Shown in pieces: positions 4,363-26,937 of a stretch of DNA of 26,937 bases. Below the pieces are notes generated by a model. The model had not been told where the DNA came from, made no database searches, and worked only from the letters and a program-made list of their open reading frames with translations. The position numbers and the translations under genes were made by a program. This stretch comes from a virus, in the IMG/VR virus record IMGVR_UViG_3300000230_000020, positions 5,701 to 32,637 of that record; one strand, 5' to 3'. Within the stretch, counting starts at the first letter, position 1. Each line of letters begins with the position of its first letter.

Positions 4363-4718
4363 TTTGAATCCTTAGTTAGTGAGAGGGATTCAATTTGCTT
4401 TAAGTAACCTCTTTCATCTCTAAAAAAATTGCCAATCTTAGCTGACCAATCTTTTCCAAGTAGCTCAACAAACTCATCTTTTATTCTATCTGACCCTGCT
4501 TTCCCCATTGAATAGTAGGAGTTGTCCCAAAGTTTATATAAAATAATTATTGCACCAGTTAATCGCTCTTTTCCCATAGACTTCTGACCTGCTTCAAATT
4601 GTTGTTCTACTAATTCCTTTAATGCTTTCCAAGAAATTCTAACCTCACTAGGAAAAGTGTATCTACTTCCTTCTACTATTCTAAATTGGTCTTTCCAGTC
4701 TGTTCTTGTTTCTTTCAT
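4359..4718 (-). CDS. Hypothetical protein, 119 residues
   Basis: Not recognised. The protein is charged and mostly helical in appearance, with aromatic-rich 'LYKLWDNSYYSMGKAG' at residues about 61-76. ATGA overlaps link it to both the gene before (stop at 4715) and the gene after, placing it firmly in the coupled early operon. No catalytic motif or membrane segment is seen. Confidence 0.75.
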   Translation of the reverse strand: MKETRTDWKDQFRIVEGSRYTFPSEVRISWKALKELVEQQFEAGQKSMGKERLTGAIIILYKLWDNSYYSMGKAGSDRIKDEFVELLGKDWSAKIGNFFRDERGYLKQIESLSLTKDSK

Positions 4719-5041
4719 AGTTTATTTATATCTTTCTCTTTTAATGGAATGTTATTAAACTTTAATTCTTCATAAAGAAATTCCTGATCTTGGTTTTCTT
4801 TATAAGACCAAAGCCTTTTATTGCACTCTATAGTTACAGCCTTTAAAGCATTGAGTATCGTTAGCCAACCGCCTAGATAATCAATGCCTCTACAAGCAAA
4901 AACAAATCCAAATGGTTTGCCATTTTCATCTACAAAACTAACCACCTCTTTTTTGTAATCGATGTGGGCAATAATTCTCACCCCCTCTTGGTTGAAAAGT
5001 ATGGTTTCTGATAATGGTCTTGACTGTAAGATTGGTGTCAT
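4715..5041 (-). CDS. Hypothetical protein, 108 residues
   Basis: Not recognised. The start has AAAGGAAAA directly upstream and an ATGA overlap with the hexad-repeat gene. A central segment 'VVSFVDENGKPFGFVFACRGIDYLGGWLTILNALKAV' (given here in part: FVDENGKPFGF, YLGGWLTILNALKAV) suggests a beta hairpin followed by an amphipathic helix. A small globular cytoplasmic protein is likely; function unknown. Confidence 0.75.
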   Translation of the reverse strand: MTPILQSRPLSETILFNQEGVRIIAHIDYKKEVVSFVDENGKPFGFVFACRGIDYLGGWLTILNALKAVTIECNKRLWSYKENQDQEFLYEELKFNNIPLKEKDINKL

Positions 5042-5838
5042 TTTTCCTTTGTAATTTTTAAGTTTTCTACCTTTATACCAAACTTATTGGCTATTTCATC
5101 AATCGTCAACTCTACCTTTTCTTCTTCTGGTAGTCCTAATTCTTTAACAATACCATATTCAACAACTCCACCCTCTAGCTTGCCACAAGTGATAGTCTTT
5201 TCTTCATCACTAATATCTCTCCAAGTGTTAATACCTGCAAAGATTTTAAGTCCAAAAGATAGTTTACCCTTACAGGTGATTGATAAACCTGCTTGTATGC
5301 CGTATGAGTCACCAGCTTCAATCCAGTTATTAGCTTTAATCCAGCTACCAGCTTCAATCCAGTCACCAGCTTTAATCCAGCTACCAGCTTTAATCCAGCT
5401 ACCAGCTTCAATCCAGCTATCAGCTTCAATCCAGCTATCAGCTTTAATCCAGCTACCAGCTTCAATCGAGTCACCAGCTTCAATCGAGTAACCAGCTTCA
5501 ATCGAGCCACCAGCTTCAATCCAGTTATTAGCTTTAATCCAGCTACCAGCTCCAATCGAGCTACCAGCTTCAATCCAGCTATCAGCTTTAATCCAGCTAC
5601 CAGCTTTAATCCAGCTATCAGCTTTAATCGAGTCACCAGCTTCAATCGAGCCACCAACTTCAATCGAGCCACCAGCCTTAATCGAGTTGCCAGCTTTAAT
5701 CAATAAATAGCCAGTTACATCTAATCTGCCTTCAAAGAATAATGAGCATTGAAACTCTAGGTTTCCTTCTACTTTATAACCATAGTCGTCTTTGTGTTTG
5801 TCTAAATCTGATTGAGATTTAATAATGTATGTTTGCAT
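5038..5838 (-). CDS. Six-residue-repeat protein, predicted beta-helix
   Basis: 266 residues with AAGGAAAAACAAAT before the ATG. Residues 51-176 are 21 uninterrupted copies of a six-residue unit of the form [S/D/G/N/Y]-[S/W]-I-[E/K]-A-[G/D/N]. The regular Ile followed two residues later by Ala fits a left-handed hexapeptide or bactofilin-like beta-helix. The N-terminal 45 residues ('YKVEGNLEFQCSLFFEGRLDVTG') look like a leading beta segment, as in polymer-forming cytoskeletal proteins. After the repeats comes a cap, then a C-terminal motif 'TIDEIANKFGIKVENLKI'. The gene is in an early, non-virion operon, so an intracellular scaffold or binding role is more likely than a tail fibre. The fold is inferred; no enzyme motif is visible. 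Confidence 0.85.
   Translation of the reverse strand: MQTYIIKSQSDLDKHKDDYGYKVEGNLEFQCSLFFEGRLDVTGYLLIKAGNSIKAGGSIEVGGSIEAGDSIKADSWIKAGSWIKADSWIEAGSSIGAGSWIKANNWIEAGGSIEAGYSIEAGDSIEAGSWIKADSWIEADSWIEAGSWIKAGSWIKAGDWIEAGSWIKANNWIEAGDSYGIQAGLSITCKGKLSFGLKIFAGINTWRDISDEEKTITCGKLEGGVVEYGIVKELGLPEEEKVELTIDEIANKFGIKVENLKITKEK
5311..5688. repeat. 21-unit 18-bp tandem coding repeat
   Basis: Exactly 378 bases made of 18-bp units encoding the hexads. Differences concentrate in three places: an NAC/NGC codon (Ser, Asn, Asp, Gly or Tyr), TGG/TCG (Trp/Ser), and GAA/AAA (Glu/Lys). Because the unit is a multiple of three and lacks stops in other frames, long spurious frames open on both strands here. Such a repeat is prone to unit-number change by slippage or recombination. 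Confidence 0.95.
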
Positions 5839-5885
5839 ATTTGTTTTTCCTTAATAGTTTATAAAAACAGCTTTTTGCCTATAAA

Positions 5886-6096: not shown

Positions 6097-6597
6097 TTAT
6101 TGCCAGAATGATTTAATTCCAACAACGTGGCTGCAAGCCCAAGCAGACCAGCCATTTCGGTCATAGATTTGCTTTGCTTTGTCAGTATTAAACTTCCAGT
6201 TCATGAGTTGTTCTTCGCTATATCCATGTACACTATTAACCATAAAAATTCCTACATCTTCTGAGCCATCTGAATTCCAATTAGTGGCTTTAGGATCAAA
6301 GTTGTGGTTTTCACATTTATTTATAATGGTAATAGCGTTAGCACTTTCATCACCAAACACTTCCACGATATAATTTAAGATCATTTGCTTCTGAGTAAGC
6401 TCTTTTACTTCTTCTTTAGCCTGTACTGTCTTTTCTAGTTGAAAAGTTGATTTCAGGGTGTTTAGTGAGCTTCTATTCATCTCTTTAACCCAACCAAATA
6501 GCGTGGCGATCAGAATGACCGTAACAAAAAATGAGATTATAGTTATCCAAGCTAGTTTGCTAAAGGTCTTTGGTTTCCTGCGTGTTCTTGCTTTCAT
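6097..6597 (-). CDS. Membrane-anchored lysozyme/SLT-like protein
   Basis: 166 residues. A basic N-terminus is followed by one transmembrane helix at about 17-36, then a short linker and a lysozyme-like domain from about 70 to the end. The likely catalytic Glu96 is in 'INKCENHNFDP'; 'DVGIFMVNSVHG' (114-125) matches the GxxQ-type core of goose-lysozyme/SLT folds, and 'AKQIYDRNGWSAWACS' is the characteristic C-terminal helix with Trp. Family members cleave the MurNAc-GlcNAc bond of peptidoglycan. With an N-in anchor the enzyme domain would face outside the membrane. It is encoded in the early operon, far from the endolysin. No clear Shine-Dalgarno precedes the ATG. Confidence 0.83.
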   Translation of the reverse strand: MKARTRRKPKTFSKLAWITIISFFVTVILIATLFGWVKEMNRSSLNTLKSTFQLEKTVQAKEEVKELTQKQMILNYIVEVFGDESANAITIINKCENHNFDPKATNWNSDGSEDVGIFMVNSVHGYSEEQLMNWKFNTDKAKQIYDRNGWSAWACSHVVGIKSFWQ

Positions 6598-24235: not shown

Positions 24236-26937
24236 TTATCTCCTAAATACATTCTTAATTGCACTTGTTACTTTACTAAATACATTGCTCTTTGGTTTGC
24301 TTTGAGGTGCTGGAGCTTTACTCATTTGAGGTCTGTAGTTAGCAGCTCTAGAGTCTGTAGCACTGCTCATTTGCAATTTAGCTGGAGAAGAAACTTTAGG
24401 AGCCCTGCTCATTTGAGGTCTATAATTAGCTGCTTTTGGATTACTGGCACTACTCATCTGTAATTTAGCAGGTGAAGAAGAAGCCTTTGGAGCTTTACTC
24501 ATTTGGGGTTGGTAGTTTGCAGCTCTTGGATTGCTAGCACTACTCATTTGTAACTTAGCTGGAGAGGCAAACGATTTTCGAAGTGAAGCACTCGCCATAC
24601 TTGTTTTTGGAGCATTCAAAGAGAAATTAGCACTTGGCATTACTGGACTGCTAGCTTTTGAGCCACTTGAAGCAAAGATGTTCCTATTTGCAGAAGTTGG
24701 CAATGGAGTAAAAATACTCTGTTGCCCCTTTGTAGAGGATCTAATTTGATCAAAATAGCTATTCAAGGAGTTGTTGTATTCATCGACCTGTCTATTATAA
24801 GCATCAATAGACCCTGAATCATATTCATCAGAGTAGCCCATTTTAGACATTGGTTGATATTTAGTCTTTTCAAAATCCACGTACTTTTCAGTCGCAGCTC
24901 CTAGGTCCTTAGAACCTCCAAAAACTGATGAGATGTTTCCTAGATCTTTGTAAAAATCTTCATTAAATAAATCTAGAGTTAAAGCACCACCAGCCAAATC
25001 TTTAGCGTTAGGCTTTAAGAACTGTTTATACATCTCACCACCACCGAGCTTGAAAAATGGGTCAGAAACGTCATTTCTAGCCAAATCAGACATAGATGGA
25101 GCAGCATCCATTAAAGACGAAAATTGACCTGCTCGTGTTTGTTGCCCCGTACCTGAAACATCACCAACAGCACGTTTTGAAATAGAAGGCTGTGGCCTAA
25201 ATACGTTCTCAAGACCTGAAACACCTGCTTGACTAAGAGCTTTTATACCTTCTCCTGCTTTAGCAGAGGCGTAACCGCCAATACTATCTGCTGCACCCTT
25301 TAAGTTCTTGCCTAAAGATTCAATAAATGGTTTTTGAGAACCGTCATCTGCATAAGCAGGTTTGACCACTTCGTTGGCGATCTCTCCAGGTAATCTGGAA
25401 AGTCTAGCTCCAACTCTATTTACAGTGTCTAAAAAGTTTGTTTTAGCACCTTTGAAGTCTCCTCTGGATAACTCGGACAATCCAGTATCAATTCTTGGAG
25501 TTAGATTTGCTTTTTCAATGTTATAGCTTAAAGCCTGTCCTGGGGTAACTTGGCCGCTAGCAACTTCACCAGCAAACATTTCTGGTAGTCCAGCTTTTGC
25601 ACCTAGTTCGTTAATATTCTGACCAAGTTCTTGTCTTTCAGGACTCATTGGTTTGACAGATTCTTTAGCTGTACTAAATACGTTCCCTATGTTTTGACCT
25701 GCTTCTTGGCCAGCCTGTTTAATTGTTTGAAAAGGTTTATATTCTTGCTGAATGCCACTATCTTGCTGTACTGGTTTACTTATTTGCTCTTGTGATTGCT
25801 GTGTCTGACCTTCTGGTTGAAATGATCTATCTAGCGTTCCTGGAGCTGGTTGCCCTGGCAGTGGAGTACGAGTTCCCTGTGGGTTGGTGAATCCTGAGAA
25901 AGAGGTAGGATTGCTGATTTGACCACTTTGATCGTAGTATTCAAGATCAAGATGCTCACCTTGAGTGTTTCCAGTTGTTCCTGGGATACCAAAAGTCTCA
26001 CCTGGATCAATTACATCACCTGGTTCAACATCTATCATTTGACTCATGTGAGAGAAACGAAGCATTTCGCCTGTTGCGAGTCTAACGAGGATAGAATTTC
26101 CATAACCTTGATGACCTGATCTATCTCCAAATTGAGTGCCATCATCATAAAGAACCTGTACAACTTCTGCACCTACTGGAAGTTTTAATTCCCTTTGTCC
26201 TTCTGCCAAATCTTTGGTTCGGATATCTGTTCCATAGTTTACATTGCCTGGGGTTGGTTCAATTGGATTTATGTTTCCGTAAGGCTGAGTGATTGTTCTA
26301 TCTTGACCGAAAATGCCTGAAATAAGCCCTTGAATGCCTCCCTGTGTATCTGGTTGACCTTCTCCATATTGATAGTTTCCATAGCGAGCTGTTCCATCTG
26401 AGTAACGAATACGTTCACGATCACCTGCGAGTGAAGCAATACCCTCTGGAGCAGTTTGTCTTAAACTTCCATCTGAGTAGCGAACACCACCACTAACATC
26501 TGAGGCAATGGCATAAGCGTTTGGATCACCTTGACGAATAGTCCCATCATCGTAGACGATCGTTCCATCTCCAAGCATTGTGCCACCATCTGCGGTAGTC
26601 ATTACGCCCTCTAGTTGAGGATCTCCAAAGCTAGGTTGATTTTCTGGAGCGTTATATGCTTGTTCAAACTGAGTTAAAAAGTCCTCAATTGTTATAGGTT
26701 CTTCTGTAAATTCTGGCACATCAACTTGGTTAGGTTCAGGGTAAACTTCTGGAGCTTTTCTCTGTACAGGAGTAGGCTGAGTCATTCCATTGCCGTATTG
26801 CATGGTCGATGGAGTTTCGCTAAGTCCTGTTGGGTTAGCTACTTTTCCAGGTAAATACATTGGAATATTCGAGGAGGTGTCTTGACCGACAAAAAGACCT
26901 GTGCCTGTATTTCTCTTTAAGAGATCTTCAAGCTGTT
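24236..26937 (-). CDS. Large virion protein with degenerate M23-like domain, partial
   Basis: The frame is open through the right edge: 25 codons upstream of the ATG at 26860 read as protein and that ATG lacks a ribosome binding site, so the true start probably lies outside. Numbering from 26860: residues 90-160 carry repeated 'YxDGTxR' strands. Residues about 205-315 look like an M23/LytM peptidase: 'NVNYGTDIRT', 'GYGNSILVRLATGEML', 'FSHMSQ' (His271), 'GIPGTTGNTQGEHLDLEYY' (His303). However, the usual zinc ligands His and His are Asn208 and Asp305; only Asp212 is retained. Long helical, low-complexity stretches follow, then three 29-30-residue repeats. Probably a virion-associated wall-contact or internal protein. 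Confidence 0.75.
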   Translation of the reverse strand, partial: QLEDLLKRNTGTGLFVGQDTSSNIPMYLPGKVANPTGLSETPSTMQYGNGMTQPTPVQRKAPEVYPEPNQVDVPEFTEEPITIEDFLTQFEQAYNAPENQPSFGDPQLEGVMTTADGGTMLGDGTIVYDDGTIRQGDPNAYAIASDVSGGVRYSDGSLRQTAPEGIASLAGDRERIRYSDGTARYGNYQYGEGQPDTQGGIQGLISGIFGQDRTITQPYGNINPIEPTPGNVNYGTDIRTKDLAEGQRELKLPVGAEVVQVLYDDGTQFGDRSGHQGYGNSILVRLATGEMLRFSHMSQMIDVEPGDVIDPGETFGIPGTTGNTQGEHLDLEYYDQSGQISNPTSFSGFTNPQGTRTPLPGQPAPGTLDRSFQPEGQTQQSQEQISKPVQQDSGIQQEYKPFQTIKQAGQEAGQNIGNVFSTAKESVKPMSPERQELGQNINELGAKAGLPEMFAGEVASGQVTPGQALSYNIEKANLTPRIDTGLSELSRGDFKGAKTNFLDTVNRVGARLSRLPGEIANEVVKPAYADDGSQKPFIESLGKNLKGAADSIGGYASAKAGEGIKALSQAGVSGLENVFRPQPSISKRAVGDVSGTGQQTRAGQFSSLMDAAPSMSDLARNDVSDPFFKLGGGEMYKQFLKPNAKDLAGGALTLDLFNEDFYKDLGNISSVFGGSKDLGAATEKYVDFEKTKYQPMSKMGYSDEYDSGSIDAYNRQVDEYNNSLNSYFDQIRSSTKGQQSIFTPLPTSANRNIFASSGSKASSPVMPSANFSLNAPKTSMASASLRKSFASPAKLQMSSASNPRAANYQPQMSKAPKASSSPAKLQMSSASNPKAANYRPQMSRAPKVSSPAKLQMSSATDSRAANYRPQMSKAPAPQSKPKSNVFSKVTSAIKNVFRR
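24302..24565. repeat. Three tandem 29-30-codon repeats
   Basis: Three consecutive copies of a unit beginning SPAKLQMSSA and containing AANYxPQMSxAPK, residues 766-853 counted from the ATG at 26860. At the DNA level copies are alike but diverged, indicating older duplication kept by selection. Ser/Ala/Pro-rich, probably an extended or flexible segment. Confidence 0.88.

Follow-up and report, generated by a model that had tools for sequence, protein, structure and literature searches.

Capped hexad-repeat proteins of phages combine uniform silent sites with diverse amino acids in a predicted beta-solenoid

A minus-strand gene in a 26,937-nt stretch of viral DNA (positions 5,701 to 32,637 of IMG/VR record IMGVR_UViG_3300000230_000020; the whole stretch is called the window here) encodes a protein of tandem six-residue units enclosed by two caps. 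The hexads and the C-terminal cap apparently define an undescribed phage protein family, in which the number of repeats varies and the units of an array differ far more in amino acids than at silent sites. Identical silent sites together with diverse surface residues clearly point, in a way that can be tested, to selection on the repeat surface. Solenoids made of six-residue strands are known; the phage family and the surface diversification of its repeats are apparently new, as no description of either was found in the open-access literature on phage hexapeptide and beta-solenoid repeat proteins.

The repeat gene and its surroundings

The hexad-repeat ORF of the original prediction was confirmed, with exact coordinates and on the minus strand (Table 1). 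Tandem Repeats Finder (TRF) reported an 18-bp period at 5311-5701 (21.7 copies, 85% matches, score 474), and counting by codon gave 22 contiguous hexads. The long uninterrupted array thus stands as predicted, but with 22 units instead of 21, and the description as perfect was slightly overstated. All 22 units begin with Ile, and all but unit 3, where Val replaces it, carry Ala at position 3. At position 2, 11 units have E, 10 have K and one has G; at position 4, 16 have Gly, four have Asp and two have Asn. Position 5 takes S, D, N, G or Y, and position 6 is divided between W (13 units) and S (9 units). When the protein was shuffled 10,000 times, no more than 7 Ile residues fell into exact six-residue register, against the 22 observed.

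Table 1. Features of the hexad-repeat gene and its immediate surroundings; positions refer to the window.
Feature	Position	Strand	Remarks
Capped hexad-repeat protein gene	5038..5838	-	266-aa ORF
Possible Shine-Dalgarno sequence AAGGA	5848..5852	-	9 nt before ATG; by consensus only
N-terminal cap, aa 1-46	5701..5838	-	kept in closer relatives; strand-helix, then irregular solenoid strands (AlphaFold2)
22 tandem hexads I-[EK]-A-[GDN]-x-x, aa 47-178	5305..5700	-	18-bp units
Conserved C-terminal cap, aa 179-235	5134..5304	-	YGIQAGLSITCK...FAG..W...DEEKTITC...VEYGI.KELG
Variable C-terminal tail, aa 236-266	5041..5133	-	unconserved; low pLDDT
Downstream 108-aa ORF	4715..5041	-	start overlaps hexad-gene stop by ATGA

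The gene occurs once in the 32.6-kb virus record that contains the window. All three stop codons terminate genes, and therefore the standard genetic code holds for the window. Upstream lie DnaB-like, DnaD-like, Erf-like and NinG/HNH-like genes, also on the minus strand, and downstream lies the terminase. From the overlap of start and stop, translational coupling with the 108-aa ORF is probable; no family was found for the latter. Two overlapping ORFs in other frames (165 and 134 aa) were rejected as by-products of a stop-free 18-bp repeat. Elsewhere in the window, about three 90-bp repeats (24311-24565) lie near the 3' end of an 874-aa ORF (24236-26860, minus strand) and are Ser/Ala/Pro-rich, and a 166-aa ORF (6097-6597) looks, by eye, membrane-like in a segment at its N-terminus and lysozyme-like towards its C-terminus; the latter ORF had no match in PHROG or Pfam.

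Predicted fold and database searches

For the window protein, AlphaFold2 run without an alignment predicts a beta-solenoid with a strand every six residues and a pLDDT of 94-98 in the central repeats. A short relative of 6 units (L008), modelled with an alignment of 21 sequences, gave a mean pLDDT of 86 with no residue below 50; its model has an N-terminal strand-helix, solenoid strands, a loop round the conserved Trp and further strands in the C-terminal cap. The two models support the regular beta-solenoid foreseen in the original prediction, neither disorder nor a coiled coil having appeared, and the expected seven or so turns are right if a turn comprises 18 residues (22/3 = 7.3).

Searches of Pfam, PHROG, NCBIfam and PDB sequences, and two fold searches of the PDB, returned generic solenoid matches and no family of known function. 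The profile search against bactofilin and hexapeptide families that had been proposed with the prediction gave no match that reached a curated cut-off. The best Pfam match was the FapA/DUF342 beta-solenoid domain (PF03961; 4.8e-07) at 30.1 bits, below its gathering score of 31, and the relatives scored 20-25 bits or did not match it. Hexapep (PF00132) reached 24.8 bits against a gathering score of 27, the NCBIfam acyltransferase models scored far under their cut-offs, and the Bactofilin profile (PF04519) did not match the window protein at E<=10. The best PHROG match, phrog_5353 (1.2e-09), covered the repeats only (aa 48-177). A phmmer match to 9e5c was rejected as a low-complexity match of A/E repeats. 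Neither PDB fold search gave a hit at E<=0.001; the weak ones were to hexapeptide enzymes, a bactofilin and MinC-type proteins. In BFVD, an uncultured Caudovirales protein matched at 3e-11 with 42% identity.

These searches bear on the idea of a bactofilin-like cytoplasmic polymer, in which end-to-end or side-by-side filaments would organise phage replication or the host membrane. We regard it as quite unlikely. The FapA similarity just below threshold is in its favour, as are the solved bactofilin 6ria among the weak fold matches (E 0.66, TMt 0.34) and a plasmid protein of Janthinobacterium, a hit of the search with the repeats, that exceeds the Pfam cut-offs of both FapA and Bactofilin (L038:3617-4621). 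However, there was no significant PDB fold match and no Bactofilin profile match for the window protein; cap-like segments are present at both ends, which usually blocks end-to-end stacking, and polymer contacts are not expected to favour surface diversity. The Janthinobacterium protein has an SYGIYAGL motif near its C-terminus, and a VgrG gene adjoins it.

A phage family with a conserved cap and variable length

Searches with the protein, and then with the C-terminal cap, identified members on 33 viral contigs, on two MAG contigs and in a single deposited phage genome, whose three equally long records were counted once. Intact members have 6 to 32 hexads. The C-terminal cap is the most conserved part (GI.AGLSI.C...FAG..W...EKTITC...VEYGI.KE) and gave no specific match in Pfam, PHROG or PDB sequences; the window protein has the hexads and every hallmark of the family cap (G-I-x-A-G-L, FAG, W, EKTITC and YGI-x-KE). 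Repeat number, which the original prediction singled out for comparison, varies among related phages and also between near-identical ones: L062, L063 and L064 agree at all 366 bases of the caps and are 97.5-99.9% identical over their longest aligned stretches, yet carry 13, 14 and 19 units. Turnover of the arrays is therefore rapid.

In the fetched flanks, no other gene cluster was common to more than three loci, so there is no conserved operon partner among them and the hexad gene behaves like an accessory gene that travels between diverse phages. The neighbours at several relatives' loci look like early, recombination or nuclease genes. An early-type gene setting was found in every locus inspected, which supports a probable intracellular role, as suggested earlier. 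The gene of the window lies in the early region as well; we infer a cytoplasmic location. By eye, the protein sequence showed no signal or anchor. That the protein is part of the virion or the tail, as many phage beta-helices are, is hardly probable. Beta-helices are common in phage fibres and the weak BFVD matches include baseplate proteins, but the early setting in the window and the other inspected loci, and the absence of conserved structural neighbours, argue against it.

Several loci have features of their own. One member lies on a contig binned as Candidatus Dependentiae (L034:7569-8267) and is open only if TGA encodes a residue; under code 25 (Absconditabacteria/Gracilibacteria), in which TGA stands for Gly, several TGAs coincide with Gly positions conserved in the relatives, and the contig may have been mis-binned and belong to a phage whose host uses code 25. 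L006:2-1014 carries two tandem members, of which the first (cut by the contig end) has the hexad YQEVGG and the second the usual I-E/K-A-G, and a variant with SQEIGG occurs in L033. In L016, upstream of the hexad gene, the product of 18-1361 looks by eye like a putative TROVE/Ro60-type RNA-binding protein. Cupriavidus megaplasmid proteins were not accepted as members: their repeats match and GYGIYAGL stands at the position of the cap start, without EKTITC...YGI. These proteins (L036:3632-4657 and L037) are unannotated, with irregular solenoid repeats ending in GYGIYAGL and an unrelated N-terminal domain.

Amino-acid and silent differences between units

Third codon positions are nearly invariant in the array of the window (the three exceptions are in units 1, 2 and 22), and the amino-acid changes lie in codons 2, 5 and 6, plus 4. 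Nearly every relative shows the same pattern, but each phage has its own fixed set of silent bases. Codon 5 across arrays is mostly NNG (G/E/W/S/T/R) or NNC (S/D/N/G/Y), the first two bases varying and the third being fixed; the alphabets of the variable positions are restricted, and the diversity is one among few tolerated residues.

The difference was quantified by a simple count of pN and pS over the interior units of 25 arrays. The mean pN at codons 2/5/6 was 0.249 and the mean pS 0.043, whereas pN at codons 1/3/4 was 0.022. In 24 of the 25 arrays pN at codons 2/5/6 exceeded pS; the arrays of related phages share ancestry, and p-values overstate their independence. A minimum-change count for the interior units of 20 arrays yielded 101 nonsynonymous and 6 synonymous changes, with 21.7 synonymous changes expected. 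The exception is L028 (pS 0.495): its units are irregular and differ at many silent sites, which is what one would expect of an array that is old or in decay. In the other genes of the window, TCG and AGC account for 5% and 11% of the Ser codons; the array does not just use the favoured codons, and codon preference does not explain its uniformity. From these sequence patterns, we read the arrays as undergoing concerted evolution by gain and loss of units, with selection holding the surface positions heterogeneous.

Nearly all arrays are metagenomic, and repeats of 18 bp are hard for short reads, so that assembly may distort them; in addition, two members, L010 and L011, lose the reading frame at their last unit. 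It is nevertheless very unlikely that the variation is an artefact of short-repeat assembly or a product of mutation bias instead of selection, since in 24 of 25 arrays the changes are confined to nonsynonymous sites and the four-fold sites of the same units are spared, which neither cause would bring about, and Ile and Ala remain fixed. The breaks themselves (L010:2020-2380 and L011:7870-8310) apparently involve a single base of a G run that directly precedes the last unit; they may reflect error, decay or phase switching.

Order and charge along the arrays

Neither the order of E and K nor the two variable positions showed convincing periodicity along the arrays. The aromatic-charged ladder that had been proposed is therefore present in composition but not as an ordered ladder. 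A salt-bridge ladder with E stacked over K at lag 3 was rejected, as no E/K pairing was found at any lag. A unit count fixed modulo 3, with both caps keeping one orientation, was rejected too: counts change in single-unit steps, and thus the caps cannot need a fixed angular relation. At lag 1, adjacent units do not avoid each other when set against shuffled arrays (z=-0.66). At lag 3, where units stack, they are if anything more alike (z=+2.6, among seven lags tested), and this weak excess of identical units would fit occasional duplications of a whole turn.

The heterogeneity of the surface could serve folding or solubility and not an arms race. The protein would then be a passive structural spacer, in which differences between units only prevent out-of-register misfolding or aggregation of identical turns and the E/K mix provides solubility. 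We consider this possible, if somewhat unlikely. E and K are near equal in number (186 to 157), nearly all arrays contain a mixture of the two, and the repeat number is free to change; for Ig-type tandem domains, divergence of neighbouring repeats has been proposed to counter misfolding (PMC4660218). On the other hand, neighbouring units are no more different than shuffled ones and those at lag 3 are if anything more alike, E and K are not paired with their opposites at lag 3, and the inner Ile and Ala, the expected drivers of register slip, stay identical.

Charge also bears on the earlier suggestion of a DNA mimic: the rod would imitate nucleic acid, or act as a decoy for host proteins that bind DNA, in the manner of the pentapeptide-repeat gyrase inhibitors. 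A regular solenoid encoded in an early region, with a net array charge of -9 in the window, is what such a mimic might look like. The net charge ranges from -17 to +3 across arrays, however, K is nearly as common as E and their order is random. This mixed and variable charge does not support a regular DNA mimic, which we hold to be most improbable. Pentapeptide-repeat mimics have, moreover, a strongly negative, DNA-like surface and a five-residue period, as opposed to the mixed E/K and the exact six-residue period, over 22 units, found here.

Proposed role

The reading that we favour, tentatively, is that of an intracellular binding rod with a surface that keeps up with changes in a host partner. 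An early accessory protein, probably cytoplasmic, would form a beta-solenoid rod with Ile and Ala stacked inside and about three hexads per turn, closed by the N-terminal cap and the conserved C-terminal cap. Array length would shift by whole 18-bp units via recombination or slippage, thereby homogenising the silent sites, and selection would keep three outward positions diverse (E/K; a turn residue or W/Y; S or an aromatic residue). The conserved cap may have a constant job, such as docking, dimerisation or binding of a fixed target. The rod itself would present a multivalent surface tracking the host partner, which may be a protein of defence or regulation; we infer both the cause of selection and any such target. 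In a more specific version, which we consider rather unlikely, 18-bp units would be shuffled by recombination into a combinatorially variable intracellular surface, selected for diversity against a variable host factor. By analogy, its logic would resemble that of antigenic variation, acting inside the cell as counter-defence.

If the arms race is true, the family would be a new class of hypervariable phage effector and offer a direct handle on the host target. If a folding constraint is true, nature would have supplied in these arrays a clean set of data on how solenoids cope with identical turns.

Comparison with known systems

The protein shares with FapA/DUF342 a regular beta-solenoid with G-x-I and A-G spacing, and differs from it by a unique C-terminal cap and the lack of a flagellar context. 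The FapA and Hexapep scores, both below threshold, put the fold in the vicinity of these two families but outside them. Bactofilins are cytoplasmic solenoids made of short strands, and this is the feature that the hexad protein recalls; in contrast to them, it is capped, variable in length and diversified at its surface. Bactofilins form a self-assembling cytoskeletal family (PMC12448750). The hexapeptide acyltransferases (PF00132; LpxA/LpxD/GlmU) have the six-residue period and a triangular solenoid, and gave weak sequence and fold matches; the hexad protein has no partner enzymatic domain, and the fold-search E-values were >0.03. Most relatives tested do not match phrog_5353, a family of unknown function. 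Finally, Periscope Proteins are bacterial surface proteins with length-variable, identical repeats (PMC9704523). The likeness is that of a rod made of tandem, highly identical repeats that close relatives have in different numbers. Periscope Proteins, however, are found at the bacterial cell surface and have much longer repeats, whereas here a phage early gene encodes six-residue repeats whose variation is biased towards amino-acid change.
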